Below, in pieces: positions 49,028 through 57,761 of a stretch of 64,000 bases of DNA. The translations under genes and the position numbers were made by a program. The number at the start of each line of letters is the position of its first letter. Positions within the stretch are counted from its first letter, which is position 1. The notes under the pieces were generated by a model, which saw only the letters and a program-made list of their open reading frames with translations, ran no database searches and was not told the origin of the DNA. Origin of the DNA: Trujillonella endophytica (GTDB lineage: Bacteria; Actinomycetota; Actinomycetes; Mycobacteriales; Geodermatophilaceae). Location: assembly GCF_900110555.1 (NCBI RefSeq), contig NZ_FOEE01000005.1:124001-188000 (forward strand), read 5' to 3'.

Positions 49028-49831
49028 TCAGCGCGGCAGGGGCTGGACCAACTGGCCGATGGTGACCTCGGCGAACACGCCGTCGCCGTCGTGCAGCGCG
49101 GCCCGCACGACTCCACGCCCCAGCGTCGGGGTGAACCGGGTCAGGCCGGTGATGGCGACCCACTCGCCGGTCTGCTGCCGCAGCACATGGGCGCTGACGT
49201 CGGGGTTGATCGTGCTCGCCGTGGCAGCGCCGAAGTCGACGCCCATGTTGTTCGCGTAGTCGAAGCTCACGGCCAGGCGCGCCGACGGACGGACCGGCTC
49301 CCCGGCGACCACCGGGACCTCGAGCCGGATCCACAGCCCCGTCGTCGACCCCTCCCTGCTCGGGGCGTACCGCATGTCGACCCCCCGGAGGAAGCCGCGC
49401 GCCGGGGACGCCGACTCGCGCAGGCTCGGCACCTCCTCCGGCGGGACCAGCGGGCTGCCGCCGTCGGCCGGGGCTCCGGTCGGCAGCCCGTCGAGCGCCG
49501 ACAGGTCCGCATCGCGCAGCCGCAGCGCGGAGGCGCGGGCGTGCAGCTCGCCGTCCACGAGCAGGTGCAGGTCGACCAGCTGGATCTTCTTGCCCTCGCG
49601 GACGACGGTGGGCTCGACCGTGAGCCGCCGGCCCACCGGGAGGGGGCGGACGAGGTCCGCCGTCATGCGACTCACAGTCATCGGGACCAGCGTGGGGACC
49701 GTGTCGAGGACCTGACCCAGGAGCGCGAGCGTGGATCCGCCGTTGGCGTGCCGGGGATCCCAGGCACCCTGCGTGCACTCGGTGGCGACGTAGCCGTCCC
49801 CGTCGCGGACGAAGAGGGCGCCGGCGTCCAT
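49028..49831 (-). CDS. Thioesterase family protein (double-hotdog, acyl-CoA), copy A
   Basis: A 267-residue acyl-CoA thioesterase-like protein with two hotdog units. QGAWDPRHANGGSTLALL opens the first; MRYAPSREGSTTGLWIRL and FDYANNMGVDF belong to the second. It is a clear paralogue of the gene at 56165 (shared VVREGKKIQLVDL, SALRLRDADL, INPDVSAH). Both have GGTGG(G/C)CGGC directly before the ATG, which supports this start over GTG 49840. Confidence 0.85.
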   Translation of the reverse strand: MDAGALFVRDGDGYVATECTQGAWDPRHANGGSTLALLGQVLDTVPTLVPMTVSRMTADLVRPLPVGRRLTVEPTVVREGKKIQLVDLHLLVDGELHARASALRLRDADLSALDGLPTGAPADGGSPLVPPEEVPSLRESASPARGFLRGVDMRYAPSREGSTTGLWIRLEVPVVAGEPVRPSARLAVSFDYANNMGVDFGAATASTINPDVSAHVLRQQTGEWVAITGLTRFTPTLGRGVVRAALHDGDGVFAEVTIGQLVQPLPR

Positions 49832-49873
49832 GCCGCCCACCGTCTCACGGCCGGTCGGCGGACCCGACGGGGG

Positions 49874-50494
49874 TCAGGTGCCGGCGGTGCGGGCGCCGGC
49901 GAGCAGCAGCCGGGCCACGCCCTCGACCCGGTCCACCGCCTCGGCCAGGCTGGCCCGCCCGGTCACCAGGGCGGTCACGGAGTTCATCAGCACGGCGTCC
50001 AGGCCGCGGCCCACGTACGGCACCGCCTCGGGCGGCAGCCCGACCAGCATCTGCTCCATGAGGGCCTTGCTGCGGGTGCCCATCTCCGCCACCGTCTCGA
50101 CGACGTCCGGATCGGCCGAGGTCTGCATGAGCACCATCAGCGCGCCCATGTTCGGGTTGCGGTGGAACGCCCGCACGGCCCGGCGCAGGTAGGCCGACAC
50201 CAGCTCGCCGGGGTCGGCGTCCCGCGTCCGGCTCACCGAGGCCATGCGGCCCATCAGCGGCTGCTGCCACTCGGCCAGCGCCGCGGCCAGCAGCTGTTCG
50301 CGTGAGCGGAAGTACTTGTAGGCCGTGCCGAGGGCGACGCCGGAGCGCTCGGCGACCTCCCGCATCTGCAGCGCCTGCGGACCCCGCTCGGTGACGATCT
50401 CGACCACCGTCTCCAGGAGCCGGGTCCGGCGCGCCAGCTGGCGGGGGGTCATGGCCTCGCGCGGCAGCGGCGCGGGGGCCTCGACGGCGGTCAC
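49874..50494 (-). CDS. TetR family transcriptional regulator A
   Basis: A 206-residue regulator. The helix-turn-helix is MREVAERSGVALGTAYKYFRSREQLLAAAL (about residues 42-70, two segments), as in TetR proteins of acyl-CoA or steroid metabolism. The GTG at 50494 follows TACCGT by 7 nt: leaderless. It is divergent from the amidohydrolase-like gene at 50613, whose promoter carries a palindrome; repression of that gene and its neighbour is inferred. Confidence 0.9.
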   Translation of the reverse strand: MTAVEAPAPLPREAMTPRQLARRTRLLETVVEIVTERGPQALQMREVAERSGVALGTAYKYFRSREQLLAAALAEWQQPLMGRMASVSRTRDADPGELVSAYLRRAVRAFHRNPNMGALMVLMQTSADPDVVETVAEMGTRSKALMEQMLVGLPPEAVPYVGRGLDAVLMNSVTALVTGRASLAEAVDRVEGVARLLLAGARTAGT

Positions 50495-50577: not shown

Positions 50578-50607
50578 TTGACACGAAATGGAACGATGTT
50601 CCAAAGT
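50578..50607 (+). promoter_or_regulatory. Promoter with palindromic operator before amidohydrolase A
   Basis: -35 TTGACA (50578-50583) and -10 CAAAGT (50602-50607) are separated by 18 nt. The spacer holds the perfect palindrome TGGAAC-GAT-GTTCCA (50589-50603). The GTG start is 5 nt after the -10, so transcripts are leaderless. A related site occurs at 51496-51509. Confidence 0.6.
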
Positions 50608-50612
50608 GCCCC

Positions 50613-51476
50613 GTGCCCGGACCCACAGACCTGCCCGTGATCGACACGCTGATCGGCTTCCCGACCGAGGGGTCCGGGCAGTACGACTTCATCCGCCGGC
50701 AGACCAAGGACGCGGCCTCCCGCGCGTCGGCCATGCCGGTCGAGTACATGTTCACCGACGTCCCCGACGTCGCGCCGACGTCGGACCCCGTGTCGATCAC
50801 GCTGCACGAGATGGACCGCTTCGGCATCGAGAAGGGCATGGTCCACGTGACCGGCGACGACGCCCGGCGCGCGGTCCGCGAGCACCCCGACCGGTTCGTC
50901 CCGGCGGGGGTCGTGACCGACCCGAACGACGTCATGGGCAGCGTGCGAACCCTCCGGCAGGCGCACGAGGAGTTCGGCGTCCGGGCGACGACGGTCTTCC
51001 CCGCGGGCACGTTCCCGCAGGTCGCCATCGACGCGCCGCAGATGTACCCGGTCTACGCGACCTGCGTCGAGCTCGGCATCCCGATCTTCGTGTGCGCCGG
51101 CATGCCGGGGCCCCGCGTGCCGTACGAGGTGCAGGAGGTCGGCCGCATCGACCGGGTGATGTTCGACTTCCCGGACCTGGTGTTCGTCACCCGCCACGGC
51201 TGCGAGCCGTGGGAGGAGCTGGCCGTGAAGCTCATGCTGAAGTGGCCGAACCTCTACTACTCCACGTCCGCGTTCGCCCCGAAGCACTACCCGAAGGCCA
51301 TCGTCGACTACGCCAACAGCCGCGGCGCCGACAAGGTCCTCTACGCCGGCTACTTCCCGGCCGGGCTGTCGCTGGAGCGGATCTTCCGGGACATGCCCGC
51401 GGTGCCCTTCCGCGACGAGGTGTGGCCGAAGTTCCTCTACGGCAACGCGGCCCGGGTCCTCGGCCTGGCCGGCTGA
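50613..51476 (+). CDS. Amidohydrolase-fold protein A, metal ligands degenerate
   Basis: A 287-residue protein of the amidohydrolase 2 (TIM-barrel) group. The usual N-terminal DxHxH or DNH motif is replaced by VIDTLIGFP, and the usual late GSDYP is replaced by LYAGYFPAG. Only the TRHGCEPWEE His region is kept. It may be a non-catalytic partner or use another mechanism. The GTG at 50613 is leaderless. The canonical paralogue lies 105 nt downstream under a look-alike promoter. Confidence 0.8.
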   Translation: MPGPTDLPVIDTLIGFPTEGSGQYDFIRRQTKDAASRASAMPVEYMFTDVPDVAPTSDPVSITLHEMDRFGIEKGMVHVTGDDARRAVREHPDRFVPAGVVTDPNDVMGSVRTLRQAHEEFGVRATTVFPAGTFPQVAIDAPQMYPVYATCVELGIPIFVCAGMPGPRVPYEVQEVGRIDRVMFDFPDLVFVTRHGCEPWEELAVKLMLKWPNLYYSTSAFAPKHYPKAIVDYANSRGADKVLYAGYFPAGLSLERIFRDMPAVPFRDEVWPKFLYGNAARVLGLAG

Positions 51477-51485
51477 CTTCGGGCG

Positions 51486-51514
51486 TTGCCCGAACAGAAA
51501 CATCGTTCTAAAGT
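51486..51514 (+). promoter_or_regulatory. Promoter with related operator before amidohydrolase B
   Basis: -35 TTGCCC (51486-51491) and -10 TAAAGT (51509-51514) are 17 nt apart. The spacer site AGAAACATCGTTCT (51496-51509) is, read on the other strand, AGAACGATGTTTCT, nearly the palindrome at 50589. Co-regulation is inferred. Confidence 0.55.
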
Positions 51515-51580
51515 CGTTCCCGTCGCGCGGCGGTTGCGCGGCATCGGCGGTCCCCGCCGACCAGGGAGAGAGGCAACCCC

Positions 51581-52768
51581 GTGACCGAGCTGCCGTTCCG
51601 GTTCTTCGACTGCGACAACCACTACTACGAGGCACTGGACGCGTTCACCCGGCACCTCGAGCCCCGGTACCGCAAGCGGGCCATGCAGTGGGTGCAGGTC
51701 GAGGGGAAGACGCGCCTGCTGGTCGGCGGCAAGGTCAACAAGTTCATCCCGAACCCGACCTTCGACCCGGTCGCCGCTCCCGGCGTGATGGACGAGTACT
51801 TCCGCGGCCGCAACCCCAAGAGCGCCGACCCGAGCAAGCTGTTCGGCGAGCTGGAGCCCATCCGGCCGGAGTACCGCGACCGCGACGCCCGCCTGGCGCT
51901 CATGGACGCCCAGGGCATGGAGGCGTGCATCATGCTGCCCACCCTCGGGGTCGGCATGGAGCACGCGCTGGACCACGACATCCCCGCGATGACCGCCGCG
52001 TTCCGCGCCTTCAACCGCTGGCTGGAGGAGGACTGGGGCTTCGCCTACCGCAACCGGATCTTCGCCGCGCCCTACATCACGCTGTCCGACCCGGAGAACG
52101 CCGTCCGCGAGCTGCAGTGGGCCCTGGACCACGACGCCCGGTTCGTCGTCATGGTGGGCGGGCCGGTGACCACCGTGTTCGGGCACCGGGCGCCCGGCGA
52201 CGCCATGTTCGACGCCTTCTGGCAGCTGGCCAACGACTCGGGGATCACGGTGATCTACCACGGCGGCGATACCCTCTACACGAAGTACCTGGGGGACTGG
52301 GGCGAGAACGACTTCGCCGAGGCCTTCCGCGCCAACGCGTTCCGGAGCCTGCACTCGGCCAGCTACATGCAGGACACCCTCGCCAGCCACCTCGCGCTGG
52401 GCCTGTTCTCCCGCTTCCCCAACCTGCGGATCGCCGCGATCGAGACCGGGTCGTCGTGGGTCTTCCACCTGTTCGAGAAGCTCACGAAGGCCTGGGGTCA
52501 GGTGCCGCACCTGTTCCCGGAGGACCCCCGCGAGACGTTCGCCCGGCACGTCTGGGTCGCGCCGTTCTACGAGGACGACCTCAAGAGCCTGCTCGGGCTC
52601 CTGGGCGCCGACCACATCCTCATGGGGTCGGACTATCCGCACGTCGAGGGCCTGGCCGAGCCGGCGAGCTACCTGAAGGACCTGCAGAACGTCGACTACA
52701 CGATGGCCGACGCCGAGAAGGTCATGAAGGACAACGGCTGGGCCCTGGCGACCCGCCGCCCGGCCTGA
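51581..52768 (+). CDS. Amidohydrolase 2 family metal-dependent hydrolase B
   Basis: A 395-residue TIM-barrel hydrolase. Metal ligands are plausible: FDCDNHYYEA at the N-terminus, VIYHGGDTLY (His), the AAIETGSSW Glu, and HILMGSDYPHVEG with the conserved Asp. Family members are decarboxylases, hydratases or hydrolases of ring-cleavage and lipid-like acids; the substrate is unknown. The GTG has AGGGAGAGAGG upstream. Confidence 0.88.
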   Translation: MTELPFRFFDCDNHYYEALDAFTRHLEPRYRKRAMQWVQVEGKTRLLVGGKVNKFIPNPTFDPVAAPGVMDEYFRGRNPKSADPSKLFGELEPIRPEYRDRDARLALMDAQGMEACIMLPTLGVGMEHALDHDIPAMTAAFRAFNRWLEEDWGFAYRNRIFAAPYITLSDPENAVRELQWALDHDARFVVMVGGPVTTVFGHRAPGDAMFDAFWQLANDSGITVIYHGGDTLYTKYLGDWGENDFAEAFRANAFRSLHSASYMQDTLASHLALGLFSRFPNLRIAAIETGSSWVFHLFEKLTKAWGQVPHLFPEDPRETFARHVWVAPFYEDDLKSLLGLLGADHILMGSDYPHVEGLAEPASYLKDLQNVDYTMADAEKVMKDNGWALATRRPA

Positions 52769-52888: not shown

Positions 52889-54601
52889 TCAGCGCCCGGC
52901 CTGCTCCTCCTCCAGCCGCACCTTCAGCAGCTTGCCGGTGTCGCTGTACGGGAGGGCGGTCCGGAACTCCACCGTGGCCGGCACCTTGAACGCCGCGAGC
53001 GCCTGCCCGCACCACGCGCGCACGGCCGCCTCGGTCAGCCCCGACCCCGCCCGGGGGACGACGAACGCCTTCGGCTCCTGGCCCAGGTCGGGATGGTCGA
53101 CGCCGATGACCGCGGCGTCGTCGACGTCCGGGTGCTCGATCAGCCGGTTCTCGATCTCGATCGGGTAGACGTTCTCGCCGCCGCGGATGATCAGGTCGCG
53201 CCGGCGGCTCTCCAGGAACAGCAGCCCGCCGGAGATCCGCCCGAAGTCGCCGGTGCGGTACCAGCGGTTCTCGTGGAGGGCGGCGGCGGTGGCGGCCTCG
53301 TCGCCCCAGTAGCCGAGGAACACCGAGGGGCTACGCAGGAAGACCTCGCCGACCTCGTGCTCGACGGCCACCGAGCCGTCGTCGCGCCGCACCTCGATCT
53401 CGACCGTCGCCTGCGCCGGCCCCACGGACTCCGGCACGTCGAGGAACTCGTCGTTGCCGATGCGGGCGCCGAGCCCGACGGTCTCGGTCATCCCGTAGCC
53501 GTTGCCGAGCCGGACGCGCGGGAAGCGCTCGTGCAGCGCGCGGACGAGCTCCGGGGGGAAGGCCGACCCGCCGGTGGACGTCGACGTGACCGTCGACAGG
53601 TCGTAGCGCGCGACGTCCGGGTGCCGCAGTAGCCGCCAGAACTGCGTGGGGACGCCGGCCAGGTAGGTGGCCCGGTGCGCCTGCACGAGCTCCATGAGCA
53701 CCACCGGGTCCCACCGGCCCGGAGTCGGGAAGACGAGCTTGGTGGGGGAGGCGGCGGCGGTCACCAGCACCGGCGCGATCCCGGAGACGTGGAACAGCGG
53801 CCCCGTGACCACCGAGCACGCCTGGGGCGGGGTCCAGCCGGCGGGCGGCGGGGGCGCAGTGGCCATCGCCATGGCGCCGGACAGCCGCCCGACCAGGGCG
53901 AAGTTGACGATGTTGCGGTGCGTCAGGACCGCGCCTTTGGGGCGGCCGGTCGTGCCGCTGGTGAACAGCAGCACGGCCGGGTCGTCCTCGGCGATGTCGA
54001 CAGGCTCGGGGGAGCGGCCGAGGAACTGCTGCGCATCGGCGTGCAGCTCGTCGAGGCGGACGACCGGGACACCGGCCGGCACCGAACTCGACTCGATCCG
54101 CTCCAGCCGGCGTGCGTCACCGACGACGAGGACGGGCGAGCTCAGGGCGATGCCGAACCGCAGCTCCGGACCGGTCCACCATCCGTTCAGGCCCGTGACG
54201 ACCGCGCCGATGGTCACGACGGCCCACATCAGAAGGGCGTACTCCGCGTGGTTGGCGGCGACGATCGCGATGCGGTCGCCGGGGCGCACCCCGTAGCGCT
54301 GCTGGAGCAGGAGCGCGATCGCGTCCATGTCGGCCATGGCATCGCGGTAGGTCCAGGTCCGCCCCGTCGGCACCGAGACGAGGAACGGCAGGTCCAGCTG
54401 TGCCGGGGTCTTGTCCTCCAGCAGCGCCCGCAGCGTCCGGGGCCGGCGGACGAAGACGGTGTGCGGCCGGCCGAGGACGTCCTCGACGCCCAGCTCGAAG
54501 GGGGCGCCGGGGCCGAGAAGGGCCTCCCGCGCGGCCGGGGGCAGCGCCGCCGCCCCCTCCCAGTGCAGGCGGGCCGGCGGGGTCTGGGTCGCCTCGACCA
54601 C
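52889..54601 (-). CDS. AMP-dependent acyl-CoA synthetase/ligase
   Basis: About 570 residues; activates an acid as acyl-AMP and transfers it to CoA. Motifs in order: LLFTSGTTGRPKGAVLTH, GNGYGMTETVG, WYRTGDFG, RDLIIRGGENVYPIEIEN and the catalytic Lys in SDTGKLLK. The GTG at 54601 is chosen because GCGAGAG precedes it; starts at 54673 or 54670 inside a palindromic promoter are possible. It diverges from the enoyl-CoA hydratase gene, suggesting a shared catabolic pathway. Confidence 0.9.
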   Translation of the reverse strand: MVEATQTPPARLHWEGAAALPPAAREALLGPGAPFELGVEDVLGRPHTVFVRRPRTLRALLEDKTPAQLDLPFLVSVPTGRTWTYRDAMADMDAIALLLQQRYGVRPGDRIAIVAANHAEYALLMWAVVTIGAVVTGLNGWWTGPELRFGIALSSPVLVVGDARRLERIESSSVPAGVPVVRLDELHADAQQFLGRSPEPVDIAEDDPAVLLFTSGTTGRPKGAVLTHRNIVNFALVGRLSGAMAMATAPPPPAGWTPPQACSVVTGPLFHVSGIAPVLVTAAASPTKLVFPTPGRWDPVVLMELVQAHRATYLAGVPTQFWRLLRHPDVARYDLSTVTSTSTGGSAFPPELVRALHERFPRVRLGNGYGMTETVGLGARIGNDEFLDVPESVGPAQATVEIEVRRDDGSVAVEHEVGEVFLRSPSVFLGYWGDEAATAAALHENRWYRTGDFGRISGGLLFLESRRRDLIIRGGENVYPIEIENRLIEHPDVDDAAVIGVDHPDLGQEPKAFVVPRAGSGLTEAAVRAWCGQALAAFKVPATVEFRTALPYSDTGKLLKVRLEEEQAGR

Positions 54602-54668
54602 GGGGACTCTCGCTTCCTGTCGCCGGCTGCGCCGGTGCGGTCCGCGTCCGGCATCCCCGGCCGCGCCC

Positions 54669-54682
54669 ATCATTGTTATGAT
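54669..54682. promoter_or_regulatory. AT-rich palindrome in divergent promoter
   Basis: ATCAT-TGTT-ATGAT stands out in GC-rich surroundings. Its right half is a consensus -10 (TATGAT, 54677-54682) for the enoyl-CoA hydratase gene. The symmetry suggests an operator or paired -10 elements for both divergent genes. Confidence 0.5.
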
Positions 54683-54711
54683 TGCATCCGTGTTCGCGGG
54701 GTGGAGGAGCC

Positions 54712-55479
54712 GTGTCGGCTGAGGTGCGCACCGCGGTGCGCGTGCGTGTCCGCGACCGGGTGGCCGAGGTGACGCTCGTCGACGTCGGCCGACGCAACAG
54801 CTGCAACCCGGTGCTGGTCGAACAGCTCGTGCGGGTCTGCGACGAGCTGCGGCACGACCGCTCGGTGCACGTCGTCGTCCTGCGGGCCGAGGGGCCGGTC
54901 TTCTCCGCCGGTGGGGACGTCGACTCGCTGCTCGAACCCGCCGGCGACCCGACGGCCGTCTACGCCGGGTTCGCCGCCCTCGCCGCGCTGCCGGTGCCGG
55001 TGCTCGCTGCGGTGCACGCGCCGGTCATCGGGGCCGGGGTGAACTTCCTGCTCGCCTGCGACGCCGTCGTCGCCGCCCGCAGCGCCACCTTCGACATCCG
55101 TTTCCTCGACGTCGGCATCCACCCCGGCGGCGGCTATCTCACGCGGATGCAGGAGCGGATCGGCAGGCAGGGCACCGCGGCGCTGATCCTCTTCGGTGAC
55201 GTCGTCACCGCGGAGGAGGCACAGGGCTGCGGGCTGGTCTGGCGGTGCGTGGCCGACGAGGAGCTCGGCACCGTCGTCGGCGGGCTGGCCGCGAGGGTGG
55301 CCGGCCGCGACCGCGAGCTCCTGCGCCGGACGAAGGCGACGCTGGCGCTCGGGCCCGCGATGACCGTCGGCCGGACGGCCGCGGAGGTCGAGCAGATCGC
55401 CCAAGGCTGGTCGCAGCGGCAGCCGGCCTATCTGGCCGGTGTCGAGCGCCTACGGGCTCGCGTTCACCGCTCCCCCTGA
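54712..55479 (+). CDS. Enoyl-CoA hydratase/isomerase family protein
   Basis: A 255-residue crotonase-fold protein. The oxyanion-hole segments are FSAGGDVDSLL and APVIGAGVNFLLACD; the following FLDVGIHPGGGYL holds the region where hydratases carry their second Glu (here not Glu). This favours an isomerase or another crotonase activity. The GTG at 54712 has GGAGGAG 3-5 nt upstream. Divergent from the acyl-CoA ligase, convergent with TetR B. Confidence 0.88.
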   Translation: MSAEVRTAVRVRVRDRVAEVTLVDVGRRNSCNPVLVEQLVRVCDELRHDRSVHVVVLRAEGPVFSAGGDVDSLLEPAGDPTAVYAGFAALAALPVPVLAAVHAPVIGAGVNFLLACDAVVAARSATFDIRFLDVGIHPGGGYLTRMQERIGRQGTAALILFGDVVTAEEAQGCGLVWRCVADEELGTVVGGLAARVAGRDRELLRRTKATLALGPAMTVGRTAAEVEQIAQGWSQRQPAYLAGVERLRARVHRSP

Positions 55480-56164: not shown

Positions 56165-56965
56165 TCAGCGGGCCCGGGGCTGGACCAGCTGGCAGACGGT
56201 GACCTCGGCGAAGACGCCGTCCAGATCGCTCAGACTCGCCGTCGACACCCCGCGCCCGAGGGACGGCGAGAATCGGGTGCCCCCCGTGAGCGCCACCCAC
56301 TCGCCGGTCATCGGCCGCAGCAGGTGCGCGCTGACGTCGGGGTTGATCGTCGTGGCGGTGCCCGGCGGCATGGCCACGTTGATGTTGTTGGCGAAGTCGA
56401 ACGCCAGCGCCGCGCGGGCCGAGGTGCGCACCGCCTCGCCGTCGACGACCGGCACCTCCAGGCGGACCCACACGCCCGTGGTCGTGCCGTCCCGGCTGGG
56501 GGCGTAGCGCATGTCGACGCCCCAGAGGAAGCCGGCCTGCGACACCGAGGACTCCCGCAGGCTCTCCGCGGCCTCCGGCGGCACGAGCTGCGGCACGGTC
56601 CCGGCCGAGCCCGCCGGCAGGTCGTCGCGACCGGTGAGGTCCGCGTCGCGCAGCCGCAGCGCCGACGCCCGGGCGTGCAGCACGCCGTCGACGTGCAGGC
56701 TCAGGTCGACGAGCTGGATCTTCTTGCCCTCGCGCACGACCGAGGTGGTCACCGTCAGCGGGCGGTGCAGCGGCACCGGGCGCATGAGGTCCGCCGTCAT
56801 CCGCGCCGGCGTCATCGGGACCAGCGACGGCACGTCCTCGAGGCAGTGCCCGAGCAGCGCGAGCACCGAGCCGCCGTTGGCGTCCCCCGGGTCCCACGCC
56901 CCCTGCGCCAGTTCCGTCGCCACGTACGTGTCGTTCTCGCGGAGGAAGAGTGCGCGCGCGGCCAT
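56165..56965 (-). CDS. Thioesterase family protein (double-hotdog, acyl-CoA), copy B
   Basis: A 266-residue paralogue of the thioesterase at 49028. It shares the opening QGAWDPGDANGGSVLALLG, VVREGKKIQLVDLSL, RYAPSRDGTTTGVWVRL and TINPDVSAHLLRPMTGEW. Both copies sit next to a TetR gene, though of different TetR types and order. It probably hydrolyses acyl-CoA. Divergent from the HAD hydrolase. Confidence 0.85.
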   Translation of the reverse strand: MAARALFLRENDTYVATELAQGAWDPGDANGGSVLALLGHCLEDVPSLVPMTPARMTADLMRPVPLHRPLTVTTSVVREGKKIQLVDLSLHVDGVLHARASALRLRDADLTGRDDLPAGSAGTVPQLVPPEAAESLRESSVSQAGFLWGVDMRYAPSRDGTTTGVWVRLEVPVVDGEAVRTSARAALAFDFANNINVAMPPGTATTINPDVSAHLLRPMTGEWVALTGGTRFSPSLGRGVSTASLSDLDGVFAEVTVCQLVQPRAR

Positions 56966-57017
56966 GCCGGCCACCGTGTCACAGGCCGCCGGGAGATCCC
57001 CGTACCGTGGCCGGGAT

Positions 57018-57761
57018 GTGCGCGTGGGCTCCCCGGTGACGGCGTCGACCCGGGAGCGGGTGACCGCGCCGTGCGCCGTCCTGTTCGACATGGACGGCAC
57101 GCTCGTGGAGACCGAGGAGTACTGGGGCGAGGCCCTGCACGACCTCGCCCGCCGGCGCGGCGGCGAGCTGAGCGCGGCGGCGCGAGGGGCGACCGTCGGC
57201 ACCAGCATGCGGACGGCGATGGGGGTGCTGTACGCCGACCTCGGCCTGCCGCCGGCCGAGTCCGCCCTGGAGGCGGACGCCCGCTGGGTGGAGGACCGCG
57301 TCGCCGGCCTGATGGCCGCCGGGGTGCGCTGGCGCCCGGGTGCCCGCGAGCTGCTCGCCGCGGTGCGGACGGCGGGGGTGCCCACCGCCCTGGTGACGAC
57401 GACGAACCGGCGGCTGACCGACCTGGTGCTGGCCTCCGTGGCCCGCTCCTTCGGCGGGCGCCTCCCGTTCGACGTCACCGTCTGCGGCGACGAGGTGCCC
57501 GCGCGCAAGCCCGACCCCGCTCCCTACCGGCAGGCGGCGGGCGCCCTGGGCGTCGACGTGCGGTGCTGCGTGGTCGTCGAGGACTCGGCGGTCGGGGTGG
57601 CGGCGGGTCTCGCCTCGGGCGCCGCGGTGCTCGGCGTGCCGGCGATGCAGACGCTCGACCCGGCGCCCGGCCTGGTGCTGCGGGAGACCCTCGCCGGGCT
57701 GGGGTTGGCCGAGCTCGCGGCGATGCTGGCGCCGGCCGGCCTCGCCTGCCGGTGCGGCTGA
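57018..57761 (+). CDS. HAD family hydrolase (beta-phosphoglucomutase-like)
   Basis: A 247-residue phosphatase. The nucleophile motif is LFDMDGTLVETEEYW; motif II is ALVTTTNRR, the Lys motif is RKPDPAPYRQAA, and motif IV is VVVEDSAVGVAAG. Substrate unknown. The start is uncertain: GTG 57018 or 57024, with TACCGT shortly upstream suggesting a leaderless message. It is convergent with the HtaA-domain gene, 4 nt away. Confidence 0.88.
   Translation: MRVGSPVTASTRERVTAPCAVLFDMDGTLVETEEYWGEALHDLARRRGGELSAAARGATVGTSMRTAMGVLYADLGLPPAESALEADARWVEDRVAGLMAAGVRWRPGARELLAAVRTAGVPTALVTTTNRRLTDLVLASVARSFGGRLPFDVTVCGDEVPARKPDPAPYRQAAGALGVDVRCCVVVEDSAVGVAAGLASGAAVLGVPAMQTLDPAPGLVLRETLAGLGLAELAAMLAPAGLACRCG

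Follow-up and report, generated by a model that had tools for sequence, protein, structure and literature searches.

A metal-ligand-free PF04909 protein and a neighboring predicted dinuclear oxygenase in Trujillonella endophytica

The locus

The window, that is, the whole stretch of DNA analyzed here, comprises 64,000 nucleotides from Trujillonella endophytica. The genes and elements discussed below, with the two PF04909 proteins designated A and B, are as follows.

49874 to 50494, minus strand: TetR-family regulator, 206 amino acids, divergent from A; KstR-like (TetR_N, 1.5e-11)
50578 to 50583, plus strand: -35-like hexamer TTGACA upstream of A, read in the sequence; putative promoter
50591 to 50602, plus strand: operator-like palindrome GAACGATGTTCC upstream of A
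50613 to 51476, plus strand: protein A, 287 amino acids; metal-ligand-free PF04909 protein of the clade with IDTxIGFP, RHGCEPW, and YAGYFP motifs
51497 to 51508, minus strand: second operator copy GAACGATGTTTC between A and B, 84 bases ahead of B
51581 to 52768, plus strand: protein B, 395 amino acids; predicted amidohydrolase-related dinuclear oxygenase (ARO) with D12, H14, H227, E288, D351, H354, and E356
52892 to 54673, minus strand: acyl-CoA/AMP ligase (AMP-binding, 1e-70); probable pathway neighbor, with members of its gene cluster in 13 loci, that of the window among them
54682 to 55479, plus strand: enoyl-CoA hydratase/isomerase family protein (ECH_1, 1.6e-32); possible pathway neighbor, assigned to gene cluster 19, which occurs in 3 loci with the window counted

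The genes for A and B run in the same direction with 104 bases between them. A first-pass annotation had described an amidohydrolase pair at this position, one member of which had lost its metal ligands. Both genes and all of the motifs named for their products are indeed present, namely VIDTLIGFP (residues 9-17) and LYAGYFP (residues 243-249) in A and DNHYYE (12-17), HGGD (227-230), and GSDYP (349-353) in B. Against PF04909 (Amidohydro_2), A scores 87.9 bits and B 58.1 bits, both above the curated cut-off of 26.4 bits; neither has an NCBIfam match at E <= 0.1. The two were also taken to be paralogues. There is, however, no BLASTP similarity between them (best E of 2.6), and thus they are not recent paralogues; the profile match is likewise weak, with a probability of 6.8%. 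A and B represent separate branches within a single superfamily. The region that holds them is bordered by a pair of similar genes of the acyl-CoA thioesterase-like (4HBT_3) type, both on the minus strand, at 49028-49840 and 56165-57508.

An operator-like palindrome precedes each of the two genes. The window contains two matches to GAACGATGTTYC, with 0.00 expected, and the 4.87 Mb genome contains three copies of GAACGNTGTTYC, one before A, one before B, and one inside an unrelated open frame. Within the 1.37 Mb formed by the A loci and the window, the palindrome GAACNNTGTTYC occurs 13 times. Twelve of these sites precede A or B by no more than 260 bases, and the thirteenth is positioned just ahead of a Nocardia operon encoding A and x, the latter being a second oxygenase family described below. 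The reversed control pattern occurs once in the same DNA. With an operator ahead of each gene, A and B are predicted to be under common control, each transcribed from a promoter of its own. The TTGACA hexamer would serve as a promoter element. The best of 12 NCBIfam matches for the TetR gene is KstR, but the score of 79.9 bits is well below the cut-off of 280, and the protein is thus referred to as KstR-like rather than KstR. KstR operators, with the pattern AAC-two bases-GTT, presumably resemble the palindrome observed here. TetR genes of one similarity cluster are found in 12 compared loci, for which the gene calls represent a greedy choice that misses some genes.

In the window, the operator is positioned 22 bases before the start codon of A, a GTG for which a ribosome-binding site is not apparent. 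The corresponding distance in three loci from sister Blastococcus genomes is 68-78 bases, and the start codon there is an ATG that follows a purine-rich stretch. The gene for A in the window may be leaderless, or its start may be located elsewhere.

Protein A

The set of A proteins used for alignment consists of A from the window and those from 80 loci (the best 80 of 122 relatives), with identities of 51-90%. The closest relatives in the named genome collection are those of Blastococcus (L031-L033), with 88-90% identity. The AlphaFold2 model of A is a confident one, with a pLDDT of 89 and a pTM of 0.89. As can be seen from the alignment, the metal ligands of a mononuclear PF04909 enzyme on strands 1, 5, and 8 are not in place. 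The first strand is without the DxH motif in 76 of the 81 proteins, where it reads D-x-x, and DTH is found in only five (L044, L045, L047, L048, and L050). None of the 81 has the strand 5 histidine, 67 of them having a cysteine instead, and on strand 8 every one has a tyrosine where the family has an aspartate. The strand 6 histidine, contained within RHGxEPW, is retained in all. The missing canonical metal site of A is thus not sequencing noise, and as judged from these residues the absence of metal ligands is a trait of the clade and no accident. The notion that A recently lost its ligands did not hold, however, for the clade is old and widespread, and the would-be active-site face is strictly conserved.

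Fifty-three positions of A are invariant in at least 80 of the 81 proteins, with 26 of these located in the β-α loops that form the active-site face. When the long first β-α loop is set aside, 22 of 59 loop positions are invariant as compared to 27 of 181 elsewhere (p = 0.0006); when it is included, the number is 26 of 106 and the enrichment weakens to p = 0.058. The strictly conserved pocket is formed by Tyr45, Arg168, Gln174, His195, Glu198, Trp200, Tyr226, and Tyr247, and Asp11 is found in 78 of the 81. Those residues that are invariant in A proteins with a partner are equally invariant in those that stand alone. Such residues would not be expected to persist in a decaying pseudo-enzyme. 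That A is a recent pseudogene was ruled out by its open frame and by the pocket residues, which all 81 proteins retain. Note that the invariant residues could serve in binding rather than catalysis. The age of the clade, its conserved pocket, and the occurrence of A without B (see below) all speak against a pair composed of an active enzyme and an inactivated paralogue. Positions 27, 44, 152, 183, 213, and 255 are kept only in partnered A proteins; they were considered as a possible interface and are too few and too conservative to name one.

Cys161, Cys197, His195, Asp11, and Glu198 might be thought to provide A with a different set of metal ligands, given that His195 is present in all 81 proteins, Cys197 in 68, and Cys161 in 67. 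The two cysteines occur together in only 59 of the 81, however, and their usual replacements (Thr, Asn, Ala, and Gly) are non-ligands. A metalloenzyme of this type is very improbable.

Protein B

According to PMC7782822, the dinuclear ligands of AibH2 are Asp25, His27, His211, Glu265, Asp337, and His340, and an additional acidic residue, D342 in AibH2 or Glu313 in PtmU3, is described as kept only in the binuclear members. All of the AibH2 ligand positions are found in B together with the acidic residue, E356, and D12, H14, H227, E288, D351, H354, and E356 are invariant in 22 aligned relatives. The name of the class, amidohydrolase-related dinuclear oxygenases (AROs), is taken from PMC10811679.

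A predicted model of B (pLDDT of 83) is closest in fold to an uncharacterized protein, 4dzi, with a Z-score of 49.0 and an identity of 43%. Ranks 2-13 are occupied by PtmU3 (Z of 31.7), DitZ, SfbO, three TruffO entries, and the AibH1H2 chains, down to a Z-score of 27.6. The mononuclear enzymes, including ACMSD and LigW, rank below the AROs at 27.2 and less, with ties near the boundary and the last steps falling within one Z unit. B had first been taken for an ordinary amidohydrolase; its ligand set and modeled fold indicate that it is probably a dinuclear oxygenase and not a hydrolase. A pattern scan for a small Rieske partner revealed no CxH-n-CxxH open reading frame within 10 kb of B in the window. 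Such an adjacent protein is reported beside 90% of AibH2-like genes in PMC10401708, and is thus a usual companion, not a requirement. Given no adjacent Rieske gene, B is classified here only as a predicted ARO.

Occurrence of A and its partners

A survey of 397 genomes of the order revealed A in 16 (E <= 1e-80). A close B, defined by at least 69% identity, is present in 11 of the 397, the very 11 genomes in which A is full-length and at least 71% identical; the identities required for calling A, B, or x close were set after the lists were seen. The Fisher p value for co-occurrence is 5e-18, which overstates independence because the genomes, a sample of the order, are related. In all 11, the two genes are within 2.3 kb of each other. 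They are direct neighbors in six, the window included, and in the other five they are separated by ∼2.25 kb, an interval that contains a fused double acyl-CoA dehydrogenase. Unlike the sister Blastococcus genomes, the window contains no such dehydrogenase between A and B (51474-51580), and the best match in its genome lies on another contig (C28:34320-36455, 55%). The possibility that the module is centered on the dehydrogenase was considered and rejected, since it intervenes in only five of the 11 genomes and the best match in the window genome is elsewhere. The adjacency of A and B in six of the 11 and the location of this match on another contig suggest that A and B are the more stable unit.

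The genome of T. endophytica has 31 PF04909 matches, 30 of them above the cut-off, and a tandem pair of B paralogues occurs on contig C16 (331802-334500). Adjacency in one genome is therefore weak evidence, and A and B might simply be an ordinary tandem of unrelated amidohydrolase-family genes without functional meaning. Co-occurrence in 11 of 11 genomes, changes in gene order with linkage kept, and the shared operator all counter such an explanation, which is improbable in the extreme.

In other lineages the place of B beside A is taken by x, the second ARO family belonging to PF04909. The x proteins constitute a single family, with identities of 43-80% to one of its members and of ∼20% to B, and they carry the same dinuclear ligand positions as B, with three rows not fully readable in this count: L042 (first strand misaligned), L061 (undetermined bases), and L103 (contig end). 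Three genomes of the order with an A of 66-70% identity have x rather than B upstream of A, with gaps of 41, 44, and 895 bases. The close A and B are found together in three genera (11 genomes), and A with x in a fourth (three genomes). The remaining carriers of A, G051 (55%) and G139 (68% over part of its length, with stops), lack a nearby partner of this kind.

Of the 81 A loci, the window included, 19 have a close B, 28 have an adjacent x, and 34 have neither. This last number is an upper bound, for several of the loci are on short contigs (for example, L053, L073, L086, L091, L099, and L105). The x gene lies on the strand of A and within about 100 bases of it in 28 of 28 x-A loci. On the tree of A, the partner label (B, x, or neither) switches 13 times or more. 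Thirty-three genomes underlie the 34 loci with neither; in 10 of these, including two Rhodococcus records in which A is 66-69% identical, neither B nor x is present in the genome at E <= 1e-100. The first-pass annotation had asked whether other genomes always keep the pair together, and had named wide occurrence of A without B as a refutation. The close A and B are kept together and share an operator; wide occurrence of A without B is observed in part, as demonstrated by the 34 loci. This weakens the suggestion of an obligate heteromer and leaves that of a metal-free activity. A is tightly tied to an ARO in its nearest lineages and is not dependent on one everywhere.

A proposed acyl-CoA module

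In relatives, an acyl-CoA dehydrogenase is encoded near A, and other oxygenases, KshA-type Rieske and luciferase-like, are found close to lone A genes. A P450 is present in some of the x loci. In L093 (10848-11972) and L110 (10909-12015), a Rieske oxygenase gene directly follows the lone A, and that of L093 has a 3-ketosteroid 9α-hydroxylase C-terminal domain, a hint of steroid-like substrates for this branch. A conserved gene order is present in four marine or MAG records (L063, L069, L077, and L061), where x and A come after the genes for a further, third member of PF04909 (DGHxLEPP), an acetyl-CoA hydrolase/transferase-like protein, and a P450. PtmU3 acts on CoA-linked diterpenoids, as stated in PMC10127204, and this activity, together with the acyl-CoA neighbors, points to an acyl-CoA oxidation module.

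We lean slightly toward a model in which A and B catalyze two steps of one acyl-CoA module. The KstR-like TetR repressor would control an acyl-CoA catabolic module that holds both genes. B would be a dinuclear (Fe2 or Mn/Fe) monooxygenase of the PtmU3/AibH2 type acting on a CoA-linked substrate. A would most likely carry out acid-base chemistry of its own that needs no metal, such as the reaction of a lyase, a hydratase, or a decarboxylase, with either the substrate or the product of B as its target. An independent enzymatic role for A is placed first because its pocket is equally conserved when A stands alone and because two poorly similar oxygenase families occur beside the same A. Likewise, the low identity of B and x and the presence of still other oxygenases near lone A genes fit metabolic coupling better than structural coupling.

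The main rival to this model holds that A is, as AibH1 is for AibH2, a non-catalytic subunit of a two-barrel oxygenase; A would form a heteromer with B or x, in which it would shape the active-site loop or dock the reductase. There is a precedent in AibH1H2, an α2α'2 complex of two PF04909 proteins, only one catalytic and both needed according to PMC7782822 and the review PMC12141560. Fifteen genomes of the order have an A of at least 66% identity, and it is accompanied by a close B or x in 14 of them, the exception (G139) being the partial copy with stops. The partner proteins that are readable carry the dinuclear ligand set. The tight co-inheritance and the closely spaced, same-strand x-A genes, while compatible with two enzymes, also fit a heteromer. 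On the other hand, A is not AibH1-like, as discussed below, and 10 of 33 genomes have A with neither partner at E <= 1e-100. A single interface would need to suit both B and x despite an identity of only ∼20%, and none of the four long open reading frames checked (L078, L087, L096, and L102) is an A-B fusion. We regard a subunit role for A as rather unlikely.

It is tentatively possible, although doubtful, that the IGFP/RHGCEPW/YAGYFP clade represents an uncharacterized type of metal-free PF04909 TIM-barrel enzyme with interchangeable dinuclear oxygenases (B or x). These might form a channeled or heteromeric two-barrel system for the catabolism of polycyclic or isoprenoid acyl-CoAs in Actinobacteria and Proteobacteria. 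Two-barrel oxygenase pairs such as AibH1H2 and metal-free members of the superfamily are each already known, cofactor-free PF04909 enzymes being described in PMC10811679. A search of the open-access literature revealed no paper on the clade of A, or on a ligand-free clade with interchangeable oxygenase partners. Many genes annotated as amidohydrolases may encode oxygenases or metal-free enzymes, and with A and B both possibilities can be examined in one small locus. A catalytic A would offer a further metal-free route to chemistry in this barrel; if A is a subunit, the two-barrel AibH1H2 type of oxygenase would be extended to a large, partner-swapping group. The shared operator makes the substrate findable through induction.

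Comparison with known systems

Like A and B, the proteins of 2-aminoisobutyrate hydroxylase, AibH1H2 (PDB 6m1w, 6m2i, and 8ful-8fuo), are two linked members of PF04909, one of which has the full dinuclear ligand set. AibH1 keeps a five-ligand mononuclear site, given in PMC7782822 as Asp24, His26, His201, Glu255, and Asp328, whereas A, a protein of 287 amino acids, is without the histidines of strands 1 and 5 and the aspartate of strand 8: DxH is absent from 76 of the 81 A proteins, and the strand 5 histidine and strand 8 aspartate from all of them. No AibH1 chain appears among the PDB matches of A by phmmer (E <= 1) or by profile search (E <= 0.001), which in itself is weak evidence. AibG-type Rieske genes are not seen beside A and B, in contrast to AibH1H2.

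B resembles the diterpenoid-CoA hydroxylase PtmU3 (PDB 6omp) in its ligand positions, including the glutamate at E313, in its second-best fold match, and in its CoA-enzyme surroundings. The two are ∼25% identical over the aligned part, and the oxygenase role of B is a predicted one. PtmU3 is described, in the available text, without a partner like A. The closest structure to B, 4dzi, is that of MAP2389c from Mycobacterium avium subsp. paratuberculosis, an entry whose title assigns no function.

The mononuclear PF04909 enzymes ACMSD, LigW, LigJ, and γ-resorcylate decarboxylase share with A the fold (Z-scores of 18-21) and the strand 6 histidine. Their metal-ligand positions, which we take to be on strands 1, 5, and 8, are those at which A is without ligands. 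The closest solved relative of A is BB4693 from Bordetella bronchiseptica (PDB 3irs and 3k4w), an uncharacterized protein with a Z-score of 26.5 and an identity of 25%. Like A, BB4693 lacks both the strand 5 histidine and the strand 8 aspartate and has HGxxPW at strand 6. Its strand 8 reads Ala-Tyr-Pro, and that of A reads Tyr-Phe-Pro.
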